A stretch of DNA of 64,000 nucleotides from Nannobrachium achirus (lineage: Eukaryota; Chordata; Actinopteri; Myctophiformes; Myctophidae): contig OY997658.1 in the NCBI GenBank assembly GCA_963921795.1, positions 52,300,312-52,364,311 on the forward strand, given 5' to 3'. This document shows, piece after piece, positions 12,428 through 50,815 of this stretch (position 1 is the stretch's first letter; every line of letters starts with the position of its first letter). Below the pieces are notes generated by a model. The model had not been told where the DNA came from. It saw only the letters and a list, made by a program, of their open reading frames with translations, and did no database searches. The translations under genes and the position numbers were made by a program.

Positions 12428-12730
12428 ACTAAAGTTTAAAACATACATAAACCACTTTAGCCCTATGTTATACCAAGGCTATTTGAAAATAGACGATCTA
12501 CAAGCTCACAACGCATTGCGGTGCGACGCGTTGTGAGCTTGTAGATCTGCTATTTTCAAACATTTTGTACTTTTACTTTTGGTACTTTAAGTACATTTGG
12601 ATACCAATACTTTTGTACTTTTACTCAAGTACATTTTTTATTCTGGACTTTTACTTGTAACAGAGTGATTCTACATTGCAGAATTGATACTTTACTTTAT
12701 TATAAAATATTGGTACTTTTTCCACCACTG
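12428..12730 (+). mobile_element. Partial family A hAT-like MITE with full palindrome
   Basis: It matches the 3' half of the 49323-50182 copy (CATAAACCACTTTAGCCC, TACTTTTACTTTTGGTAC, TACTTTTTCCACCACTG) and ends with the expected CACCACTG. The left half is missing. The palindrome at 12482-12560 is complete. Confidence 0.75.
12482..12560. repeat. Dispersed palindrome, full copy 1
   Basis: 33-bp arms, differing by two bases (TTTGAAAATAG..GATC then TACAAGCTCACAACGC, and the inverse), are separated by a 13-base spacer. The core is shared with copies near 23.9, 40.1, 41.1, 50.0, 50.5 and 50.8 kb. Confidence 0.9.
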
Positions 12731-12734
12731 TGTA

Positions 12735-13364
12735 AACGTTTGTGTTCTCATGCCAATAAAGCTTCTTTGAATTGAAGATTGAATTGAAGATTGCTCCCCA
12801 TGTGGCGGAGTCAGGTCATTGCAGGTTAGAAATTTATTTAAAACTTGAATATCTCAAAAGTACTATTTCAGCATGGCATCATTCTATAAGCCATATCTTC
12901 AAAACTGTTGGGTCAATCTCCACAACCAATATATCATTTTGTAGCTATGATCCCCAGCTTTCAAATGAAATGAAAAAATGAAAATGAAAAAAATTGCAAT
13001 GACTGGCTCCTGGGGAGATTGGGACACATTTGTTTATACAATGCATAACTAGATTATTAGAATTAATTTACCGACTGAATGATTTCAATAGTAAAAGATT
13101 AAAGCTGCACCAAGCTTACAATGATATTATTCATTGTATCAGGACAGCCTCTGAGATAAAAGCTTGATATATCAGGATTTATTCATTTAAATCGATTGTT
13201 ATGTGTGGCAAATGCAATGCTATCCATTTTCATTGGCTATAGAGCATCCTTGTGTGGATGCCGTCATGGCATTCTGGAAATATTTATCTCAAATTAGATG
13301 GTGATGAGAGTTTTCAAAAATAAACACAAATAACATGAATGAATAACCACATAATTCATTCATT
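12735..13364. other. No gene seen
   Basis: AT-rich and unique-looking. Only a tandem duplication of about 12 bp (TTGAATTGAAGA) near 12768 is visible. Confidence 0.35.
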
Positions 13365-13365
13365 C

Positions 13366-13400
13366 CCTCGTTCGTTCGTTCGTTCGTTCGTTCGTTCATT
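13366..13400. repeat. TTCG tetranucleotide microsatellite
   Basis: About eight TTCG units flanked by ATTCATTC variants. Confidence 0.95.
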
Positions 13401-13749
13401 CAGAGACCTTCAGTTTAATTATAATGGATATTTAAAAATATTAATATTCATGTCAGGCAGTCTTAAAAGTGTTCCATTTCATTTGCTCTGAACTTTTCCT
13501 GACTATTTAATGAACTAAATGTAAACTTTATGCCTCATAAACACATCAAAGACATAGGCAGGCAGATGCTCCTTAATGTACTGTATGTGCCACATGGGAG
13601 TGAGGTTTATACAATAAACAAGGTCAAGACGAGAAACACAAACCATAGTCCAAGGTTTCAAAAACAATGCTGAAGTTTGCAGCTGAGTGAGTTCATTTAA
13701 AAAAAGAAAAAAGGTATTGGGGATGTGTGCGTAACTTGTCCTATACCTG

Positions 13750-14474
13750 TTAAAGGTATAGGTAAAAAAGACGTTTGGTCATTTTATCGTCTAATCAGGC
13801 TTTTATGAACACCCTGAACAGTTTTTGATTTGCTTGATTCAATATTTAGATATTTGTGTCCCACCGCGGCTGGCGGCTAGTCATCTCGCACTGATCAATT
13901 GTTCACTGGAGCTATTATGACGTTTTCTTTAGTTTTTTCTCTAAAATATAATAAAGCCACAAAAGCATCTCAAAATATCTTGGCTACATTTCACTTAAAC
14001 GCCAGAGCTTAACTCTGCATGTAAATAAGACTTTTTTTAATTAATGTGAGAGATCGGGACATAATTTTGTTGTTCCTCCCGGAATATGGCTAAAATGCTA
14101 GTCCTAGCCAGCCTTTGTTAGCCCTTTGTAGCCAAATGCGGTAATATGTTCGGTCACATTTGATGTAAATGCTATCAGGCCCTCCAGGCCAAGGGCCTCT
14201 CCCCATACACACCCATTGTAACTTCAAACTCCATTTTAACCATGATAGATTCATTAAAAACACCCATTATTTTTTCTGGTGACTCATACTACCCTCCTAA
14301 TACGTGAGCAGGACGTGTTTTTTCAATAACTTTTTTTCATTTATTTTTAATAATTCTTTGGGAAAATCAAATATCTAAATATTGAATCAAGCAAAACCGT
14401 CCAGGGTGTTCATAAAAGCCTGATTAGATGATAAAATGACCAAAGGTTTTTTTTAAAGTGAAATATCCCTTTAA
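13750..14474. mobile_element. Non-autonomous DNA transposon with TTAA ends (piggyBac-like)
   Basis: The left end is TTAAAGGTATA and the right end is TATCCCTTTAA, with subterminal inverted arms of about 95 bp (TCATTTTATCGTCTAATCAG paired with CTGATTAGATGATAAAATGA; AACACCCTGAACAG paired with CCAGGGTGTT). The TTAA target and CCCT ends fit piggyBac-type MITEs. A second copy lies at 61960-62660 and the core recurs at 10970-11285. Confidence 0.75.
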
Positions 14475-14764
14475 TAACTACTGCGTTACACTGCGCTACT
14501 TTAATTATACATATGGCAAATCGCAGTTTGCAGGTTATACTCAATTGACTATTTTCATTACACAAATCCTGTTACAAAGTGAGATAATTACATGCTGTAG
14601 ATCCGTGTTTCTCAAATGGGGGTACGTGTACCCTTAGGGGTACATAGAGGTACAACGGGGTACTTGAGATAAAATGGAAAATGTAAACATTTATTTTATG
14701 TTTATTATAAAACAATGACACATGTATGTGAAAAAAATTTGGAACGCCTTACCGAAGGCATTAA

Positions 14765-15416
14765 CTCATACCTCGCGATCCCCGTAGAAACCGTAGATTT
14801 CCCGCTGTACCGCGCTGCCATGCCCGTAGAGCCCGTAAAGTTTAATTAGCTTTAATCATTATGAAAGGATTAAAAGTATTAGCGCAGATTTTCGCTGATT
14901 CTGGCTCTTTAGGCCCGCCCCCCTAACTGTATCCGGTCATTTCCGGTCTGGACCGGATCCAGCTTTCCGTATCCAGTCTGAGCCTGGGCCATAGTCCCGC
15001 CTCCATTGGTTTACTGTGTAACAGAAGTGGAAGCTACTCGGCGATGGAACGCTCGTTTTTCAATCGGATTTTTGCGTTTGGAAACTTTGATCCAGTCTCT
15101 ACACGCCTGGATTATGATCCCCGCACATATCGTGCGTTTTGTGCGCGAACGTGTCCACGTGTTACCATAGCGCATGCCTGGCTTTTTTTCAATGTTTTTC
15201 ATGTAAACACTGGCGGATAAGCAGGAATACAGCGTGGCAACGGATATGTCTTTTTCAATGGGGTTTTTTGTATTCGAAAGCTTGTCACCGAGTCTACACG
15301 TCTACTAGATGAGTCGCGCACAGATTGTGCACGATGCGTGCGCGTGCCCACGCTAAAAGGTAAGGACAATTTGGCAGCTGCTTACTACAGCTATGTTTAA
15401 AATGGCAGAGAAATTG
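14765..15416. mobile_element. Insertion of unknown class between TTAA duplicates
   Basis: The LINE sequence on either side joins perfectly if this segment and one TTAA (14761-14764 or 15417-15420) are removed. The interior is GC-richer and starts CTCATACCTCGCG. Its ends are not inverted copies of each other, so only the TTAA target is reminiscent of piggyBac-type elements. No coding sequence was recognised. Confidence 0.6.
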
Positions 15417-15796
15417 TTAAAGGAGTGTGGATCACTAGCATCCTTTAAAATCGCCCTGAAAAACCACTCACAGGCAGCAGCCGTTCGCAACTGGTAAAAA
15501 ACAAACATAGCCCAGCCCTACCCTCCCCTGACCCCTCTTTGTATTTACCTACTGTATGATGTTTTTTTTTTTTTTTTTTTATTGTTTCCCCCTTTTTTCC
15601 TGACTATATCTACTGCATAGTACTGTGTTCTATCCGTCTGTCATTCAATGTTATGAGATACTTAAATGGTTTCCTATGGAAATAAGCGTATATAGTCTTT
15701 TCTAATCTAGGATCTCCTTTTAGTAGACCTTGTACCAGTGAACTGTACCGTCATGAAACTGTACTTTTTCCTATGCAAACTTCTTCTAATAAAGTC

Positions 15797-15797
<1 letters not shown>

Positions 15798-15852
<55 letters not shown>
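15798..15852 (+). repeat. ATCA microsatellite, LINE 3' tail
   Basis: About 13 tandem ATCA units directly after the LINE polyadenylation-like AATAAA. CR1/L2-type LINEs end in short tandem repeats instead of poly(A), so this is read as the LINE tail. Confidence 0.9.
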
Positions 15853-15855
<3 letters not shown>

Positions 15856-16257
15856 GGCTGCTCTGTAAAGCTTTAAAAGTTTATTGATTGATTGATTTGA
15901 TTGAAGGCTTTATTAGAAGTTTGCATAGGAAAATGTACAGATTCATGACGGTACAGTTCACTGGTACAAGGTCTACTAAAAGGAGATCCATGAAAAGACT
16001 AAGCTTATTTCAACAGGAAACCATTTAAGTATCTCATATAACATTGAATGACAGACAAATAGAACACAGTACTATGCAGTAGATATGTAAAGAAAAGGGG
16101 GAAAAAAAGAAAAGAAAACAGTAAATCTAAACAAACAGTAAGTATATACAAGGAATATACAGTAAGTCTAAACAAACAGTAAGTATATACAAGGAATATA
16201 CAAGTATACAAGTATATACAAGGAAGGGGCAGGGAGGGTAGGGTTGGGCTAGGTTTT

Positions 16258-17967
16258 TTACCAGTTGCGAACGGCTGCTGCCTGTAAGTGGTTTTTCAGG
16301 GCAATTTTAAAGGATGCTAGTGATCCACACTCCTTTATGGCCTTCGGTAAGGCATTCCACATTTTTGTGGTATAGCAGAAGAACGAGTTCGACCCTTTCT
16401 TTGAGTTGACTCTGGGTTGAACGTGATCTGTGGCACTGCCTCTGGTGTTGTAATTATGGACATCCTTAACGTTTATAAAGTATTTTGACAGGTACTTGGG
16501 TATCATAGTGGTGTAGTGTATCTTGTACACCAGGCCCATTGCAAGTTGCTGTACTCTGTCATCTACTCTGAGCCACCCCACTCTTAACTGGTGAGTAGCG
16601 GTGAGGTGAGTCTGATAGGGAAGGTTAAGCAGGACCCTAATTAGTTTATTTTGGGCTGTTTGGAGTTTAGTTTTAAGGGCTTGTGGGGCGTCACGATACC
16701 ATACGTGGACTCCGTAGTCAAAGAGGGGCTGGATTATTGCACCAGCTATGGTCTTCAGTGTGTTGAAGTTGACCATTGGGGCGATCCTCTGTAGGAAACG
16801 AGTTCGTTGGTTGATTTTTTTTATTACTTTTGAAGTCATCTTTTCGCTGGAAAGATTAGCTTCAAGGATACATCCTAAGTAAGAGATTTCGTTTTTTCGT
16901 GTTATGACCTTGTCACCCACTTTAATTGTGAAGTCATCTACCTTTTTGAGGTTATGATTTGATCCAAAGAGGATGGACTCGGTTTTTCCCAGGTGAATTG
17001 ATAATTTGTTGTCGTTAAGCCATGTGCAGATCTTACTCAGTTCAGAGTTCAGTGTCTTTTCAACCTGCAAGTGGTCCTTGCCCGAGACTAGGAGAGCCGA
17101 GTCATCCGCGAACAGGAACAGGTTGCAGTCGCAAGCAGATGCCATGTCGTTCACGTATATTAGGAACAACAGAGGTCCCAGTATGCTACCTTGAGGAACA
17201 CCACAGCTTACTGGGAGGGGGGGGGACAGGGTTCCGTTAATCTCCACCACCTGTTCCCTCCCCACCAGGTAAGATTGCATCCAGCTCACTGCTGCGCTGT
17301 CAAGACCGATGGCTTTTAGTTTCTCAATCAGAATAGCATGATCCACGGTGTCAAATGCCTTCTGGAGGTCCATCATGACCATGCCACTATATTTGCCCTG
17401 ATCCGCTTCGCGTTTGATTTGGTCAGTCAAATAGAGAAGGCATGTGTCAGTGGAATGGGATTTTCTGAATCCAGATTGGAACTCGTAAATCAGATTATTC
17501 TCATCGAGATATCTTGCAATCTGTTCGTAGACTATTTTCTCCATGACTTTGGATATGGAGCTAAGAATGGAAACGGGGCGGTAGTTTCCAGGGTCTAGTT
17601 TGCTACCTTTTTTGTGCAGGGGGGTTACTTTTGCTAGTTTGAAGTCCTGGGGGACATGACCCTGTTCGATGGAAAGGTTAATTATGTGGGTAATGATTGG
17701 AGCAATGGTGGTGGCTGAATCTCTGAGAAATCTAGCTGGGATTTTATCAAGGCCAGTGGCCTTGTGTTGAGGTAGGGCGCTCAATTTTTTAAACACTTCA
17801 TCAGTTGTCACTGTGGAAAGTTTAAAGCTGTCTTTTCTGACGCCCAGTTTTTTGTAGAATTTTTTTAACAAATTCTTCACCATACCGCCCAGATGGGGCG
17901 ACCAGTCTTTCGACCAGTGAACGGGCTGTGGTGGTAAAGGTTTTGTTAAGATGGGTAGCCACTTCAC
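16258..17967 (-). CDS. LINE reverse transcriptase frame (C-terminal part of the polyprotein)
   Basis: This frame of 569 residues encodes the reverse transcriptase that copies the LINE RNA at a nicked target. Visible blocks are KVTPLHKKG and NYRPVSILSSISK (about 112-140), QSGFRKSHST (about 164-173), MMDLQKAFDTVDH with catalytic Asp200 (198-210), GVPQGSILGPLLF (256-268) and the active-site FADD (286-289). A C-terminal thumb-like region follows, ending AVRNW. All catalytic aspartates are present and there are no internal stops. The apparent first methionine is not the true start: the frame continues the upstream endonuclease frame after a one-base shift near 17860-17866, and the two frames overlap by 146 bp. 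Confidence 0.9.
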   Translation of the reverse strand: MKWLPILTKPLPPQPVHWSKDWSPHLGGMVKNLLKKFYKKLGVRKDSFKLSTVTTDEVFKKLSALPQHKATGLDKIPARFLRDSATTIAPIITHIINLSIEQGHVPQDFKLAKVTPLHKKGSKLDPGNYRPVSILSSISKVMEKIVYEQIARYLDENNLIYEFQSGFRKSHSTDTCLLYLTDQIKREADQGKYSGMVMMDLQKAFDTVDHAILIEKLKAIGLDSAAVSWMQSYLVGREQVVEINGTLSPPLPVSCGVPQGSILGPLLFLIYVNDMASACDCNLFLFADDSALLVSGKDHLQVEKTLNSELSKICTWLNDNKLSIHLGKTESILFGSNHNLKKVDDFTIKVGDKVITRKNEISYLGCILEANLSSEKMTSKVIKKINQRTRFLQRIAPMVNFNTLKTIAGAIIQPLFDYGVHVWYRDAPQALKTKLQTAQNKLIRVLLNLPYQTHLTATHQLRVGWLRVDDRVQQLAMGLVYKIHYTTMIPKYLSKYFINVKDVHNYNTRGSATDHVQPRVNSKKGSNSFFCYTTKMWNALPKAIKECGSLASFKIALKNHLQAAAVRNW

Positions 17968-20086
17968 CTTTGTCAGAAATGAGAGCGGCGTCCGTTTTGA
18001 TGTTTATGTTGTGGCATATGGTTTTTGGTTTTAAGCCTAATTGGTTGTTAAGCAACTTCCATAGGTCTCGTGGTTTGTTTTTGTATTCATCGATTTTGTC
18101 GTCGATGTAGTTTTTTTTGGCGGATCTAACTAGGGCGGTTGTCTGGTTTCTAAGTTTCTTGCATTGAGCAGTAAGATGCTCAACGTGGATTTTGAGGCCA
18201 GGGTTGAATTTTTTACTGAGCTTTTTGCAGCACTTTCGTTTTTCATCGTATTTTTTGTCTCTGAGTTTAGCTGATTCTGCAATATCTGAGTTATACCATG
18301 GCTCTTGGCGGGCTTTAACCCTGGTGGTATTCAAGGGGGCCACGTCGTCTAGAGCATTGGTCAATTTGGTTTTAAAACCACACCATGCTTCTTCGACATC
18401 TGTACACTGCAGCTCTGGGGAAAAGTCTACACCCGCTAGTTTGAGATTAAAAGCCTCACTGGAGTAGTTCTTCAGGCTTCTAGCAACGACAGTTCTGTGG
18501 CCACTAGCCTTGGGTTTGTGTATTTTTCGGGTAGAGTAGATCATATAATGATCACTAAGACCGCATACAATAGCCCCGCTAGCGGTGACTTTGGACTTGT
18601 CAGTGGTTACGACGAGATCTATGAGGGTTTGAGAGTGCTCTGTCACCCTGGTGGGTACTGTGACAAGCTGAGTGAGGCTGTATTGATTGCATAACCCATC
18701 AAAGGACTTGAACATGGGTGCTTCTTTACGCAAAACATCCACATTCCAGTCGCCCAAAATGTGATACTCAGTACCGTCCACCTTTGCTAAGCTCTCATCA
18801 AACAGCTCAAAGAAATCATTCTGATCAGGTGGTCTATAGACAGCGCATATTAGTATGTTTTTTGCATGTTCAAAGATTACCTCAATCCATACAGTTTCAA
18901 GTGAACTGTGGTGTAAGTCTGGACGGGGGATAAAATTGACATCATTATGTACATACATGCAAACTCCGCCTCCATACCTGTTTCTATCATTCCTGATTAC
19001 AGTATAGTTGGCAATTTCAATGCTAGCATCCGTAAACGAGTCATCAAGTTTAGTTTCAGAGAAGGATAAAATCTTTGCCTTACCGTCATGAAACATTCCC
19101 TTAATTAGCTCCAGTTTTTTGGGATTCAAGCTATTGATGTTTAAGTGGACTAGATGAAGTCCTGGTTTTGCAAAAACAACAGAGTGCATGTTCTCTGTAG
19201 TGATCGAGCCAACGTCGGAGCTGGGGGGCTCTTTGTCTATGACCGAGACAGGAAAGTTTGTCGTGGGGGGGAGGTGGTCATCATAGTCTGGTTGTAGTTG
19301 AGACTGAAGTGGGGGAGCGGTGGGGGTGGGGGTGGTGGGGAGGTCAGGTTCCTTTGTTGACTGAGAGCTCAAACAGGAGGAGATCCATGACTTTTCGACG
19401 GCACGGGGGGTCGGTGTCGCGGCGCAGACAGCTTCAAAGCCAAGATATGCCGCCAGCCACGACTGATCACGATCCCTGGGGGGTGGCGGGACCAGCGGGG
19501 GGGCATCCGGCTCGACGGTCATCTCCGGCGATCCAGCGGCCGCTAACTGGGCACCAGCATCCTCGGTGACGGGGGGGGGGGGGGGCGGGACATCCAGGTC
19601 AACGTCGGCGCTGTTGTTATCGGGCGGCGGCTCGGAAACCACGGCCGCGAGCTGGTCGTTATCGGGCGGCGGCTCGACAACCACGGCCGCGAGCTGGTCA
19701 CGAGTAGCCTCGGTGTTGGAGCTTTGCTGTAGAGAGCCGGGTGGGCAGCCACAGCACTCGTCACCAGTAGAACCCGTGTCGATGTTTCCTCCGCTGGGGT
19801 TCTTTGTCTCCGAAAGCAGCTGTAGTTCCCTCGTGAGACGGGCGGCAGCTTGCCGAGTGACCACGGGACCTGGATTAACCTCTATATCACCAGAAAGAAG
19901 CAGGATAAAGTAAATGATGGACCGTCTGTCCATTCTGCCAATCTGGGGCTTGTTCTTAGTCAGCAGCAGCGTCCCAAGGACAGTCAGTTTTCCGAAGCCG
20001 AGATGTTTTGGCTCCGACCCGACGTGGAGGAAAAAAAACACTGCGTGATTCCTCTCCATCCCGCACATAATTCTCCGTATATACAA
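17822..20086 (-). CDS. LINE ORF with 2A-like peptide and APE endonuclease
   Basis: This frame of 754 residues reads from the first methionine at 20086. A second methionine at residue 52 (19933) gives a better N-terminus: MDRRS, a hydrophobic stretch IIYFILLL, then GDIEVNPGP (residues 66-74, bases 19865-19891). The last is the D-x-E-x-N-P-G-P motif of 2A peptides, at which ribosomes skip a peptide bond between Gly73 and Pro74. A proline-rich linker follows with a 14-residue tandem repeat (130-143, 144-157; DQLAAVV..EPPPDN). The APE-type endonuclease is about 310-520: HLNINSL, SETKLD (Glu344), YRPP, GDWNVD (Asp446, Asn448), LIDL (Asp490), SDHY (Asp512-His513). The frame ends shortly after the 7-A run that separates it from the RT frame. 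It would nick target DNA for insertion. Confidence 0.9.
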   Translation of the reverse strand: MYIRRIMCGMERNHAVFFFLHVGSEPKHLGFGKLTVLGTLLLTKNKPQIGRMDRRSIIYFILLLSGDIEVNPGPVVTRQAAARLTRELQLLSETKNPSGGNIDTGSTGDECCGCPPGSLQQSSNTEATRDQLAAVVVEPPPDNDQLAAVVSEPPPDNNSADVDLDVPPPPPPVTEDAGAQLAAAGSPEMTVEPDAPPLVPPPPRDRDQSWLAAYLGFEAVCAATPTPRAVEKSWISSCLSSQSTKEPDLPTTPTPTAPPLQSQLQPDYDDHLPPTTNFPVSVIDKEPPSSDVGSITTENMHSVVFAKPGLHLVHLNINSLNPKKLELIKGMFHDGKAKILSFSETKLDDSFTDASIEIANYTVIRNDRNRYGGGVCMYVHNDVNFIPRPDLHHSSLETVWIEVIFEHAKNILICAVYRPPDQNDFFELFDESLAKVDGTEYHILGDWNVDVLRKEAPMFKSFDGLCNQYSLTQLVTVPTRVTEHSQTLIDLVVTTDKSKVTASGAIVCGLSDHYMIYSTRKIHKPKASGHRTVVARSLKNYSSEAFNLKLAGVDFSPELQCTDVEEAWCGFKTKLTNALDDVAPLNTTRVKARQEPWYNSDIAESAKLRDKKYDEKRKCCKKLSKKFNPGLKIHVEHLTAQCKKLRNQTTALVRSAKKNYIDDKIDEYKNKPRDLWKLLNNQLGLKPKTICHNINIKTDAALISDKGEVATHLNKTFTTTARSLVERLVAPSGRYGEEFVKKILQKTGRQKRQL

Positions 20087-20339
20087 TTATGAGCGTTCCG
20101 TGGTGAACTGAGACACGAGTCGGCAAACCATACAAGAAACAATAGGAAAAAAAGAAGAAAAAGTATCCCTCCTTTCCATTGTCCCTGGGTTCTAGCTTGG
20201 TGGGACGGAGCGAACGAAAAAAATGCGACCGCTCACGTTGACTGCTGCTCGAATCAAAATGTTGTTGTCGATTAAAGGGGGTACAGGGTACTTGGATTCA
20301 GCAAAAAGCCCAAAAAGTTTTAGATCCACCGCTGTAGAT

Positions 20340-21240
20340 GATGCTATGCCAGACAACATTATTTATCGTTTTATTTATCATCCTTGATCGTTTGAAATTC
20401 TAAAGTTGAGTGTTTTCAGGGAAAGTCTAAAAAGTGTTGGGCACAGCTATTGACACAAAATGTCCATAGCACTAGCTAATTATTCTGTTCTTGACGAACA
20501 GCGAGAGAAGTCCAACCAACTGTTTAACTCTTTTACCGCTTCGGACGTTCCCGTTCGCCCCAATTTTCAACCCAGCTCGTTGCCAATACGGCTCGTTCTT
20601 TTTACCTTGTCTGATGACTGTAAGCTGCCGTGTACAGTAAAAACATATCCCGTAACACTGCTCTCAAAAATCCACCGCACGTTAGCAAAAATGGAGTCCC
20701 AAATCACATCCTGGCTGTTTTCTGTGGATCTGTTCTAGAAAATGCATTTATATGCTCTGAATGGATGGCAAGCGAAGCGGCCCAATTCACAGTCATTCTT
20801 TGCATAAGGCTGCCCTCTGCCGCCAGCTCGGCTAAAGTACACATATGAGCGCTGTATTGTAGAACAAATTAGTTTGAAAATTATCAATAGATAATTTTCT
20901 ATAACATTGCAAAGGTAAGCTGCTTTTTGCTGGCACCAGCCCCAATAAATAAATAATAACATCTGGCAGTAGATCTGTTAATATAGGCAATGATGAGCCA
21001 TCGGCAGTGATAAAACACAAATCTGTGGTAGACTGCTTTGAGAGGTAATATATTATTATTATATTTAAAATACCATGGGCCCTAATGAAGTGCTCAGTGA
21101 TGGGTGATTGAATGCACATTCCTTTTGCCTGGCTAAATTCATTTCCATAACATAATGTTATGTTTATGAGCTACCATGTTGTAATTTGAATTAGAATGAA
21201 TCTTGATATAGGGCTGACATTGTGGAAGTGTCCCGTAGGG
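20340..21240. other. No gene seen
   Basis: I find no recognised domain, splice-site pattern or repeat. Short open frames at 20460-20850 lack motifs. Confidence 0.35.
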
Positions 21241-23560: not shown

Positions 23561-24007
23561 CAGGGGCGTCACACCAAATTCTGGGCCCTGGGTTAAAGGA
23601 TTCACTGCGGGCCCCCCATGAATGTTAACCGAGTGCCGCGCTGCGAGCTTGTATAACTGCTATTTTTGAAAAATCTTGAAAATGTGTGCAAGAAACCTAT
23701 GTCAAGGACCCCCAAGATGATATGTATTTGGCCACGGACCCCGATCTCAAAATATTTCGTTCCAGGGACCCCCAGAAGCAAAATTTTAGTTAGAAATGTT
23801 CGCTTAAAAAAATACATGTATTCAAAGATTTTCACACATTTTCACAACTTTTCAAAAATAGCAGATCTACAAGCTCGCAGCGCGGCACTCGGTGCCGCGC
23901 TGTGAGCTTGTAGATCTGCTATTTTTCAATAGATAAAGTTACTAGGGCCCCTCCACCTTGGGCCCCAGTAACTCAGTCCCACTTTCCTACCCCTTGTGAC
24001 GCCCCTG
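23561..24007 (+). mobile_element. hAT-like MITE, CAGGGGCGTCACA family (family B)
   Basis: It starts CAGGGGCGTCACA and ends TTGTGACGCCCCTG. The flanks are GGTAGGTA on both sides, although the TAGG repeat makes that duplication less informative. It carries a half palindrome (23631-23670) and a full one (23851-23929). The same family lies inverted at 50350-50884. Confidence 0.8.
23851..23929. repeat. Dispersed palindrome, full copy 2
   Basis: 38-bp arms with two mismatches and a 3-base loop. The core reads CAGATCTACAAGCTCGCAGC and GCTGTGAGCTTGTAGATCTG, and the tip pairs GCGGCAC with GTGCCGC. Confidence 0.95.
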
Positions 24008-28341: not shown

Positions 28342-28674
28342 CAGTGGTGGAAAACATATGAAATGGTTTTTACTTAAGTAAAAGTATACTGCAATGTAAA
28401 AGTCTGGAATTCAAGATGTAGATGTTACTTGAGTAAAGGTACGAAATGTTTGAAAAGCAGATCTACAAGTTCACAACGCGTCACATAGTGTACCGGTAGG
28501 TATAAAATAGGGCTAAAGTGGTTAATGTATGTTGTATAATATAAGAGTAAAAGTACAATATTTGGAGTCGAGTGGAGTAGAAGTAAAAATGATTGGAAAT
28601 ACTCAAGTAAAGTACAAACAACTCGAAAGTGTACGTAAATGTAACTAAATGTACTTAGTTACTTTACACCACTG
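28342..28674 (-). mobile_element. hAT-like MITE, family A, with near-perfect TSD
   Basis: It starts CAGTGGTGGAAAAC and ends CTTTACACCACTG. The flanks are CTGTGCTG (28334-28341) and CTGCGCTG (28675-28682), 7 of 8 matching. A half palindrome (GCAGATCTACAAGTTCACAA) lies near 28460. Confidence 0.85.
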
Positions 28675-39944: not shown

Positions 39945-40400
39945 CAGGGGTCTTCAACAGGGGGTCCCCAGAGTTACTGCAGGGGGTCCTCCAAATCTTT
40001 GTGTGATAGAAACTTCTTTTTTCTTCTTTTTTTTATATTAACCTCTTGAACCCTAGTGTCCATTTTCTTGAGAACTTTAAAATATCCAATCTACAAGCTC
40101 ACAACGCCTCGCGCTGCGAGGCGTTGTGAGCTTGTAGATCGGCTATTTTTGGCAAAGAGGTTTGGTGTAGAGGGGAAAAAGAGCAGACCAAGTACAGAGT
40201 GAAAGGTAAAGTTTATTAAGTATCGACGGTTCAAGTGGTTAAATATCTGAAAACACAAATTGACATGAATCCAAAATACACTGATGATTGTGCTGTCAAA
40301 CAATGAAACTATAAGGAATCTATGAACAGGTTGTGGGGGTCCCTGCTTCATCTCTCTCTCAACTAAGGGGTCCTTGGCCTGAAAACGTTGAAGAGCCCTG
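39945..40400. mobile_element. hAT-like MITE, CAGGGGTCTTCAAC family (family C), perfect TSD
   Basis: It starts CAGGGGTCTTCAACAGGGGG and ends GTTGAAGAGCCCTG, flanked by CTTTAACA on both sides (39937-39944 and 40401-40408). The full palindrome at 40077-40150 is inside. Otherwise unlike families A and B. Confidence 0.9.
40077..40150. repeat. Dispersed palindrome, full copy 3
   Basis: Arms of about 34 bp (CTACAAGCTCACAACGCC and GGCGTTGTGAGCTTGTAG at the core), 3-base loop, tip CTCGC/GCGAG. Confidence 0.95.
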
Positions 40401-40410
40401 CTTTAACAAC

Positions 40411-41611
40411 TTAAAGCTGTGATGTCACGATACAAAGTTTAACATTATAGCAGCAGGTCATGTGGTTTTTGTTGAAACAGTTTGAGAATTAAGGATCACA
40501 AATTGATTGACTTGTTCACTTCTGGCAGTGGCAGCGCAACAACAGCCCAAAACGAGGAAGTCACATCAACATAAAATGTCTTTTATTACTAAATATGTGT
40601 ACCTCTCAGATATCTTAGTTTTAGTAACATTGTCCATGTCAAGTAGTTAATTTTGCCTATTTGTTGAAATTATGAAAATCGCTATCGCCCCCCGGAGGTC
40701 TGCCAACCGCCGGCTCAAAGCTTGGATTCAACCCGGGGAGGAGAGGCTAAAATGCCGCCGCCGCATTTAGCCTCCCGCCGCCGAAAAGAGCGGATATACA
40801 AGCTCAAGCTGTGCACCTTCACCCCCTAGTTCTCCCCTGGTGGTCACCGGTCTAGAATGCGTTATTTGCAATCGATTGGACCCCCAGGGGGAAACCATTT
40901 TGGCCCTAAGCGAGAAACATGTGTGTTCCCCTCTCCTCCCGGGTTGAATTCAAGCTACAAGCCGGGCGGTCAGCCTCTGCACAGCCACAGTGACTGGCTG
41001 ACTCCGTCGTACGGGGCTGTGCATATCGAAAATAGCCGATTTACAAGCTCACAACGTGTTGCGAACACAACGCGTTGTGAGCTTGTAGATCTGCTATTTT
41101 TTGTTAAAATACATACACACACATGATATGAGTGCCCGCGGGGGCTGAACAGTGAACCACAGATCGCTCCGGTGCTTAGTGGAAGAGACGGCCGCTAAAA
41201 GTGTTCCATAGCAGGGGAGGAGAAACGTTGGACCCTCAAAACCAATCTCCGACATCTTGTTTGTAGAAGATTTTGATTTTTTTAGCCGTAAATATGCCAT
41301 GAAGTTGCGAAATCTTTCAAATCTTTTACACCTACAACTGCTAGTTTTAAAATGTGTTTTCTAAATCGCATGGTCACCTCGGACAGCTTGTCTTGGGGGT
41401 AGTTTCAGAATAATGATATGCACGCTCAACTCTGCCCACTCCCCCGATATTACCCAATCAAATTAATTGATTGCAGTTACTGTACAGAAAGAACTACTTT
41501 CAGTACATCAACTGCAATACATTAATTTGATTAGGTAATCAAAGGTAGGTTTACCTAAAAAAATATTAGCTAATTTAGCTGTTGTGGGCATGTCCTCCCA
41601 TGCATCTTTAA
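40411..41611. mobile_element. TTAA element related to the one at 53561-54501
   Basis: The left end TTAAAGCTGTGATGTCACGA and the following AACATTATAGCAGCAGGTCA parallel 53561 onward, and 41330-41540 is roughly 80% identical to 54196-54415. The right end is CATCTTTAA. The middle (40680-41300) is GC-rich and holds a full palindrome at 41029-41100, which the other copy lacks. Confidence 0.6.
41029..41100. repeat. Dispersed palindrome, full copy 4
   Basis: AAAATAGCCGATTTACAAGC and the inverse GCTTGTAGATCTGCTATTTT, with an ACAACG(T/C)GTT tip. Arms about 32 bp with a few mismatches. Confidence 0.9.
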
Positions 41612-42087: not shown

Positions 42088-42089
42088 TC

Positions 42090-44500
42090 ACAAGTAAAGC
42101 CCTCAAGCTATTATTAATCATTTAGTAGGTTTCACACAGTGTGGGTCAGTGGTCATGCACAGCACCTTTCAAGCCAAACTGTGGCAGAGTGACTTCTATT
42201 TGATTGAGTATCTTTAGCCCTCATTTCCTCTTATCAAAGGTCACTATGTGTCCTGTGTGAAGGCTGTCGGAGAGGGTGTGATCAGAATAATGGTGATGAT
42301 GGCGTCGCATGCAGGTTATACGGTACGACGACTGAGTCACTGCTCAGCCTAAATATTTCATACAGTATATCCAGTCATGGTAGATTTTCTGCAAAATTGT
42401 GATTTTATATTTTGCCCATTGTATGTCATTGCCGTTAATGTAACTATGACAGAAAATTAAATTAAATCTAAAAATAAAGCTTTTAAAATTGTCTTTCACA
42501 TAAAATATGAGGACAATGAAAGTTTAATGAGCCATCTGCAATTTTGTACTACACAAGGACAGGGATACATAATTAGTTCCGTGCAGTTACCTACACTTTA
42601 CACTTCATAGCTTGGCTTGCATTGCAATGGATAAAGAAAGAGAGAGATATGTGAGAACATAAATTTGGTCGAAGGGTACACAAATAACAAATCTGTCTTA
42701 ATGGAGCGATGGTGTAATGTTAGGGAAAGAGAGATTACATCCGAAAATAGGGGGGTGGAAGTGCATTTCCTCCCTCTGTTAAGTGTCCCCGCTCCCTTAA
42801 TTTGATTTGACCCCAATGTGTACTCAGCACTTCAAACAAACATAGGTGCTTTGGGTTGCTACTCAATGTTAATGGTCTATTTAGTGCTGTATCTTTCCCT
42901 CTGCGTGACAGTTTATTTAGCCCCATTAAGCCTCTGAAGCTATATGCCCCACTGACTCAGTTGCTCTGCGTAACAAACAGTATTATTAAAATGGTTGTTA
43001 GCTCAGATGTTTTCCATAATGGCCTAAAGTGAACTCCCATTGAAGTTCCCTACAAAGGACGGCAATAAATCCATGCATTTTCAGTGAAGACCAGCAGTGC
43101 CGCTGGGTTTTTATTGTAGATAAATCGTCATTGTCGGGTGAAAACCCTGTATGTCCAAAACCGTTCGTTTTGCATTTATCATTTTAAAAATGATTTAAAC
43201 TAGTGAAAACAGCCGATCTGGTGTTTTCACTACTTTTGTGCGACCACCTTGTATGATCAAGCAGGGCTTTACTTTACGAAAGAACGTACACATTTGAAAC
43301 TTGGAGATACGAGGTTTCCGCTCGACAACGGCGAAATGTAAATTGTGAATAGGTTTATACCGTCATATTTTGTTCACTGGCCATGTGGTGAGATGAGGGA
43401 TGAAAATGACTGAACTGGAAATAATGGAAACATTGTGTATTAGTGTGGCCCCTAAAAGTTGGTCAAAGAAAGTTTCTGACCATAAGAAAGAAGAAGAAAG
43501 TGACCAAAAGCCAGATAACTAAGTTCAGAGGTTCTTAAGCTCTGTCTAGACCTTTGGATTTGCCCTGGGATCCAAGCTCATTAAAACCTGGCAGAGGGTC
43601 GACCATCAGAACAGGCCTGTGATCCCCACTGTGAAGCACTTACAGCATGTAGCAAAAGGCAGTGCTCAGGTCAGTCATATGTACAGATGGGTTAACTGCC
43701 CCCGTACAGATGTATGGTACATACATGCAATTATCAGACATTATGTCTACAAGTTTAGTTATTCCTACAGCTGAGCCCTAATACAAGTGTAGTTATTGTA
43801 CTTAAATAGATGCTGTATGGAACCTCAATACAGGTGATTATTATACTTTAGAATGTTTTCAGCTCTGCAGAGTGAGCCGGAGCAGATGTTTTCCAGGGCT
43901 GGGGACAGCAAGGGCACTGTCGATGACACTCTGATGAGCTCTCCTGCCACCTTGGGTCTCTATAATCATCAATGTCAAAGCCCTGAGGATGTGGTGGCAA
44001 ATGTCCCATTGGTTTCACTTTACATTGTAGATTTCAGCATTATTAAGTTTGCCTTGCCCAAGGACCTACCTTACATCTGTGACCCTGCTCAAATTTTTTG
44101 AATAATGTGGATTCACAAATTATACACAGACAGAATATGAGCAAAGGCAAAATGGTAGACAAAGGGTTTGGACTCAGTGTCCATGTTTGTATGGTCTTAT
44201 CCTCAGTAGAACACGTTGGCTTATGTATGTCATCAGCCAGTATAAAGACTTAGAGAAGTTTTCTGGCTGCTGTGAGGCTCGGCTGTATGCATCCTAGGCT
44301 AGCTCAGTGTTAATATACAGTATATACAGAGCACTGCAAGACTAATTGTCAATTGTCAAGTGCAAGTCAACCTCCCATACACCTTCCCCTCGAGCAGTTA
44401 ATGTGTCATTTCTGTTAGGTTGTTGTTCATTAAGACCCAATTATGTTATACAACAAATATCCTGTAAATGTGGCACCATCGTTCATATAATAGCATCATA
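42090..44500. other. No gene seen; one shared repeat word
   Basis: At 43100-43215 the sequence (TGTATGTCCAAAA, TTTATCATTTTAAA) matches 10300-10380, an unnamed dispersed repeat. The remainder has no recognised feature. Confidence 0.4.
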
Positions 44501-44503
44501 TAC

Positions 44504-44508
<5 letters not shown>

Positions 44509-44586
<78 letters not shown>
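44509..44586. repeat. TA microsatellite
   Basis: About 75 bp of TA adjoining the 3' LTR of the miniature retrotransposon. Confidence 0.95.
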
Positions 44587-44587
<1 letters not shown>

Positions 44588-44787
44588 TTAACGGTGGTGA
44601 TCCGAACCTCCCCACCCGGCTTCAAACTCGGGTCTCCCGCGTGAAAGTCCAATATCTTAACCATCACTCCAAAAGGATATCCCTATGGAACGAGAGCAGA
44701 TACTAGACTTTTGAGGCTTCAGGCTGGGGCTGCGACTCTCTCCGCCACACTCACCCCCCTTTGACCTCCTCCTACGGGGAAGCCCGG

Positions 44788-44805
44788 ATCCGGGTCACGG
44801 CACCA
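44788..44805 (-). other. Primer-binding site matching tRNA-His 3' end
   Basis: TGGTGCCGTGACCCGGAT is complementary to ATCCGGGTCACGGCACCA. From general knowledge, vertebrate tRNA-His ends ATCCGAGTCACGGCA plus CCA, so 17 of 18 positions agree. It starts one base inside the LTR boundary, as in many Gypsy-type elements. Confidence 0.65.
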
Positions 44806-44809
44806 ATGT

Positions 44810-44890
44810 AACGGAGGTGATCCGATCCTCCCCATCCGGCTTCGAACCCGGGTCTCCCACGTGAAAGTCCAATATCTTAACCATCACTCC
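44810..44890 (-). ncRNA. tRNA-like fold with B box inside the LTR
   Basis: On the minus strand GGAGTGATGGTTAAGATATTGG is followed by CCCGGGTTCGAAGCCGG, in which CCGG pairs with CCGG around a GTTCGAAG loop (B-box-like GGTTCGANNCC). GGAGTGAT near the start pairs with ATCACCTCC near the end like an acceptor stem. The second LTR (44590-44665) carries the same fold with C-to-T type changes. Pol III transcription is a prediction only. Confidence 0.5.
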
Positions 44891-44989
44891 AAAGGGACAG
44901 TATCCCTATGGAACGAGAGCAGATACTAGACTTTTGAGGCTTCAGGCTGGGGCTGCGACTCTCTCCGCCACAAGAAAATGGTCAAGACA

Positions 44990-47195
44990 AGCTGATATGT
45001 TCCCTTGCATTTTCAGTTTTCATGTTTCTCTGCCACAACAATAATAGTTTGATGGTGAGAATGACAACATTGCGGAAAGCACTGTCCCAAGTGATGGTGA
45101 TGGTGAAGAGGAACAGCCAGTACTAACTGTTTCCTGGTGATCCTCTGTGCTTCAATCTAATGTGAGGTGACAAAGCAGCGGTCGGTCCAGGTCATTGCCA
45201 AGACCCCCTCCCTCAACGGAGAGATTGCGGGTTGGAGTAAAGTGTCAATGAGCAAGGCGTCGAACGGCCCATGCTGCTCAACTCTGGTGAGGAGTGTCAA
45301 CTAAAATTGTAAATGCCATATGATCTTTCCCTCAAAGAAATTGTGACAACCTTTGACAGCTGCACTCCACTGCTATCGAATTGTTGTGCTCTGCCGCCTG
45401 GTGTGAACTACATACAGCGATGATAGGATAGCGAGGTGCAGAGGAGTGATAATTCATGGATTCATATTCAATAGAAAGATTCCAGATATCCGTCTGTGTG
45501 CCCAGTGTATGTCTCTTATTATGATTTGCTAGGAAGCTGCGGTAGATCGGCTGTGCATTGAACTGCTTTCAGGCAAAGAGGGGTAAACTAACAGGAATAA
45601 TGTGAGCTCACACTGAAAGCAAATCCAACGCTGTCGTTTAATTGGAAGATGTGCAACAGATTTATCTGATATTAGATTAGAAAGTACTGCCCTCAGGTGG
45701 AAGAATCAATTACTACAAAAAAAGATTGAATTGTCTCGGAAGTGTTGCTCCGCACATAATTAGATGTGGTGAGAGGAGCACGGGCGCAGGGAAAACATAC
45801 ATAGCAGGCCCAGGGGTGGCATGCCATGTGACATGCCATGAATGAACACACATTGGTTTGGCAGATGCACTAACATCTACTGGGAGCTTGTATTTGTCTT
45901 GATGCAATTCCAATTCATACCTCTGATGCTATCTGACGGATAGCTGGAATGGCTGGGCGACCTGAATGATGCAGGCAGGCAGTTTCTCAAAGTGTTGCCA
46001 TGGTGACAGACGGTGGAGCAGTGCTGGGAGTCATGACCACACCAGGCAGGACCTGAACCTCCACCCTGCTCCCCCCGCCCCTTCCTCCCCTCCAACAGCC
46101 ACCCCCTCTCCCCTCCAGAGACCTCGGACCCCGCACACAGCATGCCCTTGCAGCAAAACACAAGTAGCCTAATGTAAGAAACATCGTTATGCCCCCTGGC
46201 GCTGGGATAGATGACCCAGCGCGGTCAGTGGTAGGCGAGACATCTACTGTCCATCGCACAGTAGATGAACGGGGGAGAGAAGTGTGGCAGTGCAGCCTTC
46301 TGTTCAAACAGATACTCTATGATGTTGAATACACATTAGTCTCTCTGTTCTTCGGTGGCTGTGACCCGTTCAAGCTCTATTGTACATCTCTCAGTAAATG
46401 GACGTATAATTAGAGGGCAGCAGTCACCAACAAAGAATAGTCTCGCGTAGCCAGACAACTATTCCATAATCTCCGAATGCCATATAGAGTCTTGAACCAC
46501 AGCTCCTGAAATCCGAGTAATGGAAGCTGTCATTTCCGTTCACGAAATTATATTTTAAAATAAGCTAAAGCTAAATATGCTTAGATTACTTTTTTTTTAA
46601 TATATATTACGATACATGTGTGCAATGGTAAAAACTAAACAGACCCGACGGTCGCTTACCTCCCGATTAGGGAGTCTTACTGGTTTAGTCATCATCCCTT
46701 GAAACTAATATTGTCACGAGGCCTGTCATCATTTTAGGCTTATCATTATTTTGGATTCGAGTTTTTCTGCTAATCTCATGGAACTATATAGATTCATAAA
46801 TTTGGTTCGCTACTCTCTGTATGGTAGGCTCACCATACTTACCCAGATATGTCCTCTTTTGGGGTCCTGTTCCGGCCTATCCTTCAAATTCCTTCCATTG
46901 ATAGACATTAATGGATTGAATTTGTTGCGTTGTCATACAGCTAAGAAAGCACAGTCTGAAATGTGTGACCCAGTCTGGATACTGAAGTTAAAACTAGAAA
47001 TGCCACATATTGTATGCCTTCGCCAACCATTTGACTCTTAAAGTAGTACTGATTGAAGACTTTGAAGGAATCTAATGAACATTTTAGACTCATAGGGCAA
47101 AAAAAGAAAGAAAATTAGAAGACTACACAAAAGTTAAGCAATGAAAACTAGAAAAAGTGCTCTTCCGAGCACATGTCTCCACCAGGCCATGCGTC
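44990..47195. other. No gene seen; one shared repeat word
   Basis: GACGGTCGCTTACCTCCCGA followed by TTAGGGAGTCTTACTG at 46649-46684 is the inverse of the word at 36706. 46070-46110 is C-rich. No coding motif recognised. Confidence 0.4.
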
Positions 47196-47199
47196 CTGG

Positions 47200-48505
47200 T
47201 GGTGCTATAATAGGCAAAAAATAGGTAAAAAGGGTGGCATGTGTTCTTCACCAATCTTACACCTTTCATGGCGCCACCATGAGGCTGATTTGAACATTTT
47301 GTAGTGTAATTTCTTCCTTGGCCTTTTGCGAATGTGCGTGCACAATTTCATTACAATTGCACGCTGTGTTTGATTTGAGGCATTTTGTTCGAAACGGATC
47401 AATCCTGCAAAGTTTGGAGGCCAATCTTAGCCAACAGGATGGAATATTTAATATGGGACAGATCCGTCTTGATCATATGACTATAGAGATACTGTGTACT
47501 GATTTGTGTTAAGTGTGGGTAAAATCTTAAGGAGTAATATCCAAAAATGTGTCTTACATAAGTCGGCCTCCTGGTGGCGCTATAAAAGGCTGATGTGAAA
47601 AATGCAAGGAAATGGTTTTTCCTTGGCCTATAGGGAGTGCGCTTACGAAGTTTGAAACTGATCGGTGGAGTTATAGGTAAAACCACAAATTGGCCTGTTA
47701 TAGCACCACCATGAGGCTGATTTAGAAAATTTGAAGTGGCATTTCTTCCTCGGCCTAGTGGGAACGTGTGTGCGCGATTTCATGTTAATTGCACTCTGCG
47801 TTTGTGATTTGAGGCATTTTGTCCAAAACGGACCAATCTTACAAACTATGAAAGCCAATCTCAGCCAATCAGGATGGAATATGGACAATCAGACAGATCC
47901 ATGTCGATCACAGGACTGTAGAGATACTGTCTACCGATTTGCGTGATTTTTGGACAAAATCTGTAGGAGTACCAGTTGGCCAAAAGGTAGTTTTGCACAG
48001 ATTGGCCTCCTGGTGGCGCTAGAACAGGCCCATGTGAAAAATGTGGGGCAGAGGTTCTGAATTGGCATCCAGGGAGTGCGCTTACAAAGTTTGAAACTGA
48101 TCGGTGGAGTTATAGGTAAAACCACAAATCGGCCTGTTATAGCGCCACCATGAGGCTGATTTAAAAAATTGAAGTGGCATTTCTTCCTCGGCCTAGTGGG
48201 AACGTGTGTGCGCGATTTCGTGATAATTGCACTCTGCGTTTGTGCTTTGAGGCATTTTGTCCAAAATGGACCAATCTTACAAACTTTCAAAGCCAATATC
48301 AGCCAAACAGGATGGAATATGGACAATCAGACAGATCCGTGTCGATCACATGACTGTAGAGATACTGTCTACCGATTTGCGACAGAGGTTCTGAATTGGC
48401 ATCCAGGGAGTGTGTGTGCTCATTTTGGCAGCGACCTGGCCAACGGTGCCGGAGATTAGCTGTTAACAAACTTGGAGGACGCACGGACAGGGGCGAAAAC
48501 ATACT
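47200..48505 (+). repeat. Tandem repeat of about 438-bp units, three copies
   Basis: GCCACCATGAGGCTGATTT occurs near 47273, 47706 and 48144, and GTTTGAAACTGATCGGTGG near 47648 and 48088. The two later units are about 90% identical, including GGACAATCAGACAGATCC; the first is more diverged. The end (AACGGTGCCGGAGATTAGC, then GGACGCACGGACAGGGGCG) matches the monomer at 36740-36940. This resembles a common fish tandem repeat. Open frames across it are not conserved between units. Confidence 0.85.
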
Positions 48506-48575
48506 CTCCCCCTGCCTTCGGCTGGTGGAGACAATAATAAATTGTACACATTCTGTACACTCTACTCTATACTGT

Positions 48576-48580
<5 letters not shown>

Positions 48581-48659
<79 letters not shown>
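48581..48659. repeat. GA microsatellite
   Basis: About 78 bp of pure GA. Confidence 0.95.
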
Positions 48660-48661
<2 letters not shown>

Positions 48662-48699
48662 TCATTTTGTCAGTGTTTGCTTTCTGTATTGTACAGCGG

Positions 48700-49314
48700 G
48701 AGTGCTGGTCATTGTAGCCAAGGATGTGCTTCACACATTCAAACTCACACAATAGACAGCATATTCACAGAGTATTGTCACGAGCGCTGCTTTTCAAAGT
48801 TTTACAATGAAACATTCCATGAGTTGTGATGCTATGCTGATTTAATTCCATCCCTTCACCTCTACTTGCTTGTTGTAAAATGTAGATAGATGTCACAGCT
48901 GATAGCGTGTGATCTGCATTCACTGAGTGTCCATTAATAAGCCTTGTGTGGTTACAACAGTCATTCTATGACTTCATACAACATAGAGTGTAACATCAAC
49001 GTTTCTGGACCCCAAAACTGTTACATTATGTATGCTGCACCTTCAACATAGTATGATGCAGTTAAGCATTAGGCCTACCACATTTTTACAGCAAAACATT
49101 ATTCTAAAGAATTATACTACTCCCCTTAAAATATACAATTACTATCTGCAGTGAATATTCTATGCAATCAGACATATTATTATAGATTGTCAGTTTGAAT
49201 GTGAGCTAACAAAACATTTACCGTATTGTCAGAACCAGACTATTATTATGTCTGTTTAGTTGATTGATTGATTCTAAGGAATAAAAAAATAAAAAACGTA
49301 GGGTCTTTTCATTC
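48700..49314. other. No gene seen
   Basis: AT-rich with no recognised feature. Confidence 0.3.
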
Positions 49315-49526
49315 TAAAAAGGCAGTTGTGTAAAGTAACTTTTACATTAACACAACAGTAACATTTACTTAACTGTACTTAAGAAATGTAGGTATTTGTA
49401 CTTGAGTATTTCCAATTTCCAATACTTCTACTCCACTACATCTTGGATCCAAATATTGCACTTTTACTCCACTCCATTTATTTGAGAACGTTGTTTACTA
49501 GTTACTTTGCAGATATAAATTATAAT

Positions 49527-49921
49527 TAGGGCTGGGACTTTAACTGATTAATTGCGATTAATTAATTACAGAAACTTAACGCGATTAAAAAAATTAACGC
49601 ATTTTAATCGCACTTAGTTTTTTTAACCACAGAACCTTCAGTTTCGGGCATACCGATCATAGCGATGCACCAACCAAGAAGAGACAACAAACGCAAAGGG
49701 AGAAGTAGCCGATCAGAGCGCTTTGCTTGGCCCAGTGAATGTGAAATTTAGATTTAAAAAACTCACTCGTTGATTCACTCATACAACAAAATGTGTTTTA
49801 CTTGGGAAAAAAATGCTTCTCGGGTCAAATATTAATATGCGATTAAAATGTGATTAATTGCGATTAATTAATTACAAAGACTGTAATTAATTCGATATTT
49901 TTTTATCGCATCCCAGCCCTA
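49527..49921. mobile_element. hAT-like MITE nested in family A, perfect TSD
   Basis: It starts TAGGGCTGGGACTTTAAC and ends TCGCATCCCAGCCCTA, with ATTATAAT on both sides (49519-49526 and 49922-49929). The interior has TTAATTGCGATTAATTAATT words and their inverses, typical of a widespread vertebrate hAT MITE. Confidence 0.92.
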
Positions 49922-49977
49922 ATTATAATATTATAAAACATACATTAACCACTTTAGCCCTGTTTTATACCTTGTCT

Positions 49978-50030
49978 ATTTGAAAATGGCAGGTCTACAA
50001 GCTCAAGCTTATAGATCTGCTATTATCAAA
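49978..50030. repeat. Dispersed palindrome, shortened copy 5
   Basis: TTTGAAAATGGCAGGTCTAC to AAGCT, then the inverse, with the CACAACGC tip deleted from both arms symmetrically, leaving only a 2-base loop. Confidence 0.85.
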
Positions 50031-50421
50031 CATTTTGTACTTTTACTTTTGGTAGCTTGACACTTTCATACTTTTACTCAAGTACATTTTGAATTCCGGA
50101 CTACTCGTAAAGAGAGTATTCATATATTACAGTATTGATACTTTTACTTAAGTAAGAAATGTGAGTACTTTTTCCACCACTGTAAAAAGGGAACATTCAC
50201 TACAACAATCCCTCTCTGAGTGTCGTCTGTATTCATGCAGTACATTGCTGTGTGTTCATCCGGATTCCAGTGCACATCTAAACACGTACTTTGCACTGCG
50301 AGGTTGCACTGCACTATTCACCCTTATAATTGATGTAGGCCGGCCTACCCAGGGGCGTCACAAGGGGGGGAAAAGTGGGACTGAGTTACTAGGGCCCAAG
50401 GTAGATTTTATACTTTAGCTA

Positions 50422-50499
50422 TTGAAAAATATCCGATATACAAGCTCACAGCACGGCACCGAGTGCCACTCTGCGAGCTTGTAGATCTGCTATTTTTGA
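50422..50499. repeat. Dispersed palindrome, full copy 6
   Basis: ATACAAGCTCACAGCACGGC and the diverged inverse CACTCTGCGAGCTTGTAGAT. The most mismatched of the full copies. Confidence 0.85.
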
Positions 50500-50741
50500 A
50501 AAGTTGTGAAAATGTGTGCAAATCTTTGAATATATGTATTTTTAAGTGAACATTTGGTAACTCAACATTTTCTTCTGGGGGGTCCCTGGAACTAAATATT
50601 TAGAGATGGGGGTCCGTGGCCAAATACATATCATTAGGGGGTCCTTCACATGAAAAAGTTTGAGCACCACTGATATAGAAATATAAGTTTTTCAAAAAAC
50701 CATGGAAGGATTTGAAATATTGAAAAATATTCACGATTAAA

Positions 50742-50815
50742 AAAAAATAGCAGATCTACAAGCTCACAGCGCGGCACCGAGTGCCGCGCTGCGAGCTTGT
50801 ATAGCTGCTATTTTT
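50742..50815. repeat. Dispersed palindrome, full copy 7
   Basis: AAATAGCAGATCTACAAGCT to GCGCGGCAC, a 3-base loop, and the near-perfect inverse. Arms about 36 bp. Confidence 0.95.

Follow-up and report, generated by a model that had tools for sequence, protein, structure and literature searches.

The 64,000-nucleotide window analysed here (contig OY997658.1, positions 52,300,312 to 52,364,311, assembly GCA_963921795.1 of Nannobrachium achirus) contains many copies of one palindrome, and the question is how the same sequence came to lie in transposons with unrelated ends. The element is a near-perfect hairpin of about 75–90 bp with arms of up to about 43 bp, internal to many otherwise unrelated short transposons. 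With a probability of about 0.55, we consider that a single hairpin domain was captured by the founders of successive families of miniature inverted-repeat transposable elements (MITEs) and has since been copied as a passenger. The hairpin itself would probably have a single origin.

A first-pass annotation, made from the letters of the window, had reported the palindrome as recurrent. It is real and occurs on a larger scale than was described. With up to three mismatches, the arm 17-mer AGATCTACAAGCTCACA has 19 matches in the window, compared to 0.17 expected, and none of 100 shuffled sequences reached 19. In the genome (1,658,514,493 bases in 564 contigs, searched with exact patterns), the 26-mer ATAGCAGATCTACAAGCTCACARCGC was found 31,475 times, 15,994 times forward and 15,481 times in reverse, which is a count of arms, a perfect hairpin scoring twice; the reversed control gave 0 matches. 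A hidden Markov model (HMM) of the palindrome yielded 70 copies in a sample of 18 stretches of 10 kb, taken at 10.0 Mb of contigs C2 to C19 (L033–L050, 180 kb). This corresponds to 389 copies per Mb and to 2.2% of the bases. If this sample, whose stretches range from 0 to 15 arm matches, is representative, the genome would hold about 645,000 copies, whether whole or partial. In the window and L033–L050 together (244 kb), the 30 commonest non-simple 14-mers present in at least 5 of the 19 pieces were all hairpin words.

The total sequence read was about 343 kb, all from one genome. It includes the stretches L001–L030, which were chosen by an exact 26-mer match in one arm and also entered the analyses of flank clusters, empty sites, arm positions, family consensuses, the flanking 15-mer, transposon ends and change counts. 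Core-versus-outer-arm conservation and hairpin lengths were determined from the window and L031–L050 alone. L007, L016, L024 and L027 were excluded as overlaps before counting; L002 and L003, which overlap by about 1 kb, were both retained.

All seven palindromes first described as full are present in the window. Six are full, with 72–79 nt, and the one at 49978–50030 is tip-deleted. Folded as single-stranded DNA with DNA parameters, the seven gave z values of −5.0 to −16.2 against shuffled sequences. The HMM found 13 copies in the window, among them six of the seven copies listed earlier as partial, but the remaining one, near 8165, has decayed to a remnant without HMM match inside an element of the type D2 (see below). 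The matched tips CTCGC/GCGAG and GCGGCAC/GTGCCGC are as reported. Copies with both hairpin bases (29) are mostly 71–72 nt long (16); 12 fall short of this, by eye mostly through loss of sequence in or close to the tip, and 1 exceeds it. An idea that the core is hyperconserved within each copy was dropped: where copies were located through their flanks, core and outer arm differ little in conservation (of 94 arms, 87 could be aligned and 7 were too weak). A hairpin 20-mer had 0 exact matches in viral contigs.

Host transposons of the hairpin

For the 133 hairpin hits of the 343 kb, flank clustering gave 34 clusters of at least two members and 87 single flanks, and 98 of the hits have a flank in a named cluster. 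By flank sequence we distinguish about ten host families, namely A to I and K, and in addition D2. Some of them are related; H flanks, for example, resemble those of C by eye. The 83 hits in the window and L033–L050 are distributed over B (21), D (10), C (7), A (7), E (3), I (3), G (3), a small group (2), F (1), H (1) and K (1), with 24 unassigned flanks among which the D2 copies are counted.

CAG...CTG-type terminal inverted repeats were observed in families A, B, C, D2 and E. An exact 8-bp duplication was found in one of two pairs of family A (GCTGCATC, 7525–7839) and in two of five of family B, of which CATGTATC (L049 3998–4499) is clean and GGTAGGTA (23561–24007) lies in a simple repeat. 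For family C it was found in three of eleven (in L001, in L008 and as CTTTAACA at 39945–40400), and three more match at seven of eight bases. A twelfth C row, L033 658, was set aside for its different ends and nested D copy. Family E has no exact duplication in two pairs, the one in L048 being exact after a one-base slip. D2 is represented by copies in L046, L042 and L017 and by the window copy from 8079. The sole D2 copy scored (L046 1088–1446) has CTCTAAAT exactly on either side, and its right end reads CAGTG where CACTG is expected. Eight-bp duplications together with CAG ends are what we take to be the mark of hAT transposons, and by both features A, B, C, D2 and E would be hAT-like MITEs. 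The earlier view that the hosts span several families is thus borne out, A, B and C being confirmed by exact 8-bp duplications in window copies, and the window adds D and D2 to the families noted.

Family D differs from these hosts. Its ends are TCGTC..TGTCGGG, and none of five pairs shows an 8-bp duplication, by which D was ruled out as a hAT family. The five pairs are flanked by TA/TA (2), AA/AA (2) and TA/CA (1), and a further TA/TA was found at L049 8370. Genome-wide, the letters TA precede 4,032 of the 7,077 exact D ends (57%). The TA duplication of Tc1/mariner-like transposons is seen at only some D copies. Since D has 2-bp flanks and no 8-bp duplication, the hosts do not all derive from one hAT element. 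A, B, C and D2 have the 8-bp duplications and CAG ends in common with hAT MITEs in general, but the hairpin extends past the families with 8-bp duplications. For family I, the ends CAGGGACGTGC were found at six places, four of them with a hairpin within 450 bp.

D and D2 both carry the hairpin, with the same outermost letters, AAACTAGTG...CACTACTT. In local alignments of four D2 with three D copies (without significance values), similarity breaks off at these two words or a few bases from them. On the left, three of the four D2 copies have AAACTAGTG and L017 has AGACTAGTG; on the right, L042 has CACTACTT and L046 has CTCTACTT, and the word is lost in the other two. This boundary is the clearest sign that one module may lie inside transposons of different kinds.

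Families A, B and C have more than the hairpin in common. A 15-mer, GG(T/C)T(A/C)AAGTGGTTAA, lies about +15 to +29 outside the hairpin in all three, and C has a second occurrence on the opposite side, at about +66 to +76. With up to two mismatches it has 37 matches in the 343 kb, nearly all no more than 250 bp from a hairpin (36 hits in flanks, which may overlap). The left flank of A aligned with the flank B-outer3 beside the hairpin at a z of 7.2 against plain shuffles, compared to at most 4.6 for the top cross-family similarities outside A, B and C. Because of these additional bases, separate capture by A, B and C is no likelier than common descent of their interior, and common descent would be the simpler reading. 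A short stretch in E and F (ATATTTGACAA) and an 11-mer in C and D (ATGAAGCAGGG) were also observed and are candidate shared sequences.

Two side observations concern family D. A full hAT-like element at L033 658–1105, with CAGGGGTCAGCAACCC ends and GTCTATAC on either side, carries a D copy nested at 801–1005. In contig C1, D hairpin cores or ends are spaced by about 1.37 kb (G000:C1:2748579, 2749947 and 2751309) and by about 1.42 kb (C1:15537578, 15538997, 15540416 and 15541835), as if these copies sat within larger tandem arrays.

Pairing of the arms

Among 69 hairpins with both arms, more than one matched state occurs at several positions of the arm. Position 9 is A/A in 64, T/T in 4 and otherwise in 1; position 12 is T/T in 62, A/A in 5, C/C in 1 and otherwise in 1; position 6 is A/A in 65, C/C in 2 and otherwise in 2; and position −4 is T/T in 50, C/C in 6 and otherwise in 13. 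Ten family consensuses were compared without gaps, omitting D2, G (3 hairpins) and 7 unassigned of the 69 hairpins, and with one copy each for J and M. The identity is 0.907 between the two arms of one hairpin, and 0.80 (left) or 0.815 (right) for the same arm across families. None of 20,000 re-pairings of the arms attained 0.907, and 12 of 29 arm positions carry at least two matched pair types. The families have thus diverged in matched pairs. In exact copies of the core genome-wide, position 12 is A/A 16,848 times and T/T 7,000 times, with 125 + 107 = 232 mixed pairs compared to about 10,026 expected if the arms were independent; these counts score few events many times, because the differences are mostly between families.

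Position 0 deviates from this pattern, with C on one arm and A on the other in seven of the ten consensuses. The mismatch suggests that both arms were inherited jointly from one hairpin, as a mark of shared origin. The earlier statement that arms stay complementary despite change holds between families, but not at positions 0, 4 and 14, which are often mismatched.

Within families the result is different. Changes were counted for the families with at least five copies (B, C, D and E), which cover 48 of the 69 hairpins and 1,133 consensus-paired pair-sites. We found 66 one-arm changes, 4 unmatched doubles and 2 matched doubles, compared to 2.6 doubles expected, and both matched doubles are E copies carrying the A/A state of other families. 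On the chosen reading strand, 14 changes gave G-U, 14 gave A-C and 38 were of other kinds. Dispersed copies show no sign of upkeep, and the suggestion that selection or a process like gene conversion maintains their fold is not supported by this test for compensatory change. With 2 matched doubles against 2.6 expected, the copies appear to decay neutrally, the matched changes having arisen on source lineages. At this sample size no sign of ongoing arm conversion was found, and the equal numbers of G-U and A-C give no sign of selection for pairing at the RNA level.

Copies at L048 2785, L044 4557 and L026 1498 contain additional fold-back-like copies of arm pieces by eye, which are possible footprints of template switching.

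Origin of the shared hairpin

The reading that we favour involves several steps. The elements that founded several MITE families, both hAT-like families and at least one family with 2-bp duplications, would have acquired the hairpin when transposition breaks were repaired by template switching or by abortive gap repair. As an abundant dispersed sequence, perhaps the most abundant, the hairpin would be a likely repair donor. The transposase of each family would then multiply it as a passenger. Between bursts, the arms of the source lineage would have stayed largely complementary, most simply through template-switch repair that copies arm onto arm, possibly together with selection, and after dispersal the copies would decay without upkeep.

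Several results weigh against this reading. No capture intermediate was found. The outer letters common to D and D2 are rarely complete in D2 (the left nine in three of four copies, the right eight exact in one of four), 43% of the exact D ends lack a preceding TA, and A, B and C have bases beside the hairpin in common. Arm positions 0, 4 and 14 match in just 51%, 61% and 68% of the 69 hairpins, and several family consensuses are built on one to three copies. Frequent copying of whole arms is disfavoured because the mismatch at position 0 persists.

If the hairpin were mobile on its own, as had been proposed, sites without it might be expected among the flanks. Flank profiles gave 162 hits that reach the hairpin edge (one element may give two), 141 with and 21 without an HMM hairpin hit. 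By eye, 14 of the 21 have clear hairpin letters, 3 are doubtful and 4 have none. The latter (L011 1185, L032 5217, L048 4871 and window 37595) are not callable as empty sites, because their profile match starts only at position 18–25 outward. No clean empty site was found among the 162 hits with these profiles, which were built from hairpin-bearing copies and would miss hairpin-free sister families. Such families may exist. In a search by ends, those without a hairpin hit within 450 bp make up 6 of 14 A-like, 9 of 18 B-like, 10 of 38 C-like, 8 of 27 E-like, 13 of 44 CAGTGGTTCTCAAAC-like, 2 of 6 I-like and 4 of 11 D-like ends, where the hAT-like end patterns overlap one another. Some of these ends belong to deleted forms or to other elements; L025 49–351, for example, is a complete element of a different kind. 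Among the 24 hits with unassigned flanks, none of 11 near-full hairpins has a direct repeat of at least 6 bp at its edges, with 0.9 expected by re-pairing flanks.

A palindrome that transposes as a unit and inserted into each host is consistent with the abrupt loss of similarity between D and D2 close to AAACTAGTG and CACTACTT and with the 24 of 83 hits in unassigned flanks. The lack of a clean empty site among the profile hits, the absence of edge repeats (in a test limited to at least 6 bp) and the additional bases common to A, B and C make it very improbable. Descent of all hosts by deletion from one old autonomous hAT element that carried the hairpin, with ends that later diverged or were swapped, would account for those additional bases, for the A–B alignment and for the H flanks. 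This had been named as the result that would reduce the sharing to simple inheritance. It may apply to A, B and C, but D, with its 2-bp flanks and unrelated ends, and the low flank similarity outside A, B and C (z of at most 4.6) argue against it as an explanation for every family, and we regard it as unlikely. That the hairpin is a binding site for a common transposase, another earlier proposal, is hard to reconcile with hosts of two duplication types.

The hairpin might also aid the multiplication of its carriers, either as extruded DNA during replication or transposition or by counteracting silencing, so that paired lineages founded the big families. Its presence in hosts of both duplication types, the 12 of 29 arm positions with at least two matched states across families and the dominance of hairpin words among the commonest 14-mers are in line with such selection. 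The equal G-U and A-C counts, which give no sign of pairing selection in copies, the mismatch at position 0 in seven consensuses and the fact that other dispersed repeats of the window thrive without the hairpin speak against it. We consider this possible but doubtful, though the strongest competitor of capture. A role as an RNA gene or small-RNA source, in which the fold is retained because its transcript is processed, would fit the strong fold obtained with DNA parameters and a stem length that resembles that of precursor microRNAs. With no match in the window at Rfam gathering scores and with G-U equal to A-C among the copies, it is the least probable of the explanations considered. A role as a source of double-stranded RNA, also proposed earlier, would be hypothetical, and the same two results apply to it.

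Several known systems resemble the one described here. Izsvak et al. are said to have described in 1999 that the inverted repeats and fold of the Angel element are kept despite divergence. Tol2, a hAT transposon, contains an internal Angel element according to passages of PMC8151067. Both cases are palindromic DNA within fish transposons, whereas the hairpin described here, which is likened to Angel by description only, lies in the interior of many MITE families, and these have duplications of two kinds. According to PMC6887750, the MITE MER6 contains the V domain, a conserved domain passed into a DNA transposon and traced to a short interspersed nuclear element (SINE). Highly conserved SINE domains likewise form a conserved core common to elements with unrelated ends, but the V domain is traced to a SINE and, in the passages considered, is not described as a palindrome, whereas the core studied here is a hairpin in DNA transposons. 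For template switching, parts of PMC8794818 state that one mutation event can create a stem or restore its pairing in both arms at once. Because one event can change both arms, the complementarity on source lineages would fit template switching, with selection as its main rival. The hairpins treated in those parts belong to RNA genes, in contrast to the transposon copies studied here, which have no excess of matched changes.

In the literature, surveyed mostly at the level of listings, neither this hairpin nor any single palindrome common to hAT MITEs and MITEs of another class was found. Three PubMed Central papers contain one of four core 13-mers, and these matches were judged, from the listing alone, to be due to chance.

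MITE families are usually separated by their ends and viewed as deletion products of one parent each. If capture occurred as proposed, MITE interiors would be modular and transferable between unrelated transposons, here between hAT-like MITEs and those with 2-bp duplications, with matched arms specific to each family. The 16,848 + 7,000 exact copies of one core would form a large natural data set on hairpin-driven amplification and template switching in nuclear DNA. More tentatively, the hairpin could be a cassette that raises the copy number of its carriers across transposase superfamilies, paired on source lineages and perhaps the most frequent dispersed sequence of the genome. This would make it a conserved amplification domain for MITEs in a genome of 1.66 Gb.

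Features of the window

Family A hosts occur at four places. The full hairpin at 12482–12560 has its host end CAGTGGTGG at 12730 and a mismatch at arm pair 0. The host at 7525–7839 retains a one-arm remnant (7563–7609), and the host at 28342–28674, flanked by CTGTGCTG and CTGCGCTG with a match at seven of eight bases, retains a remnant at 28452–28495. The host of the tip-deleted hairpin at 49978–50030 ends at 50182.

Family B (CAGGGGCGTC) is represented at 23561–24007, with a partial (23628–23669) and a full hairpin (23852–23928), and at 50350–50884, where two full hairpins (50423–50499 and 50743–50816) lie in an element whose flanking 8 bp differ. The family C host (CAGGGGTCTTCAAC) at 39945–40400 contains a full hairpin at 40077–40151. 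A further full hairpin lies at 41027–41102, in a host called a TTAA element by the first-pass annotation only.

In the family D host at 43125–43334, which is flanked by AA/AA, the hairpin is reduced to its base, and a left part of D with a broken hairpin was found at 10287–10385. The D2 left part at 8079–8190 on the forward strand has the end CAGTGGTTCCTCAAAC, the arm AAACTAGTGAAAATA and the degraded hairpin mentioned above. One-arm remnants, both in unassigned hosts, were detected by the palindrome HMM at 8565–8593 and 40783–40806. A remnant with flank type K lies at 11773–11812, and the same flank type was observed in L022.

Beside the family A hairpin at 12482, an imperfect palindrome of 410 bp (11932–12341) has arms of 170 nt that are 80% complementary, and a neighbourhood nearly identical to this region by eye was found in L022. 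On the reverse strand at 16261–20086, two stop-free frames of 754 and 581 codons resemble by eye a retrotransposon of the long interspersed nuclear element (LINE) type.

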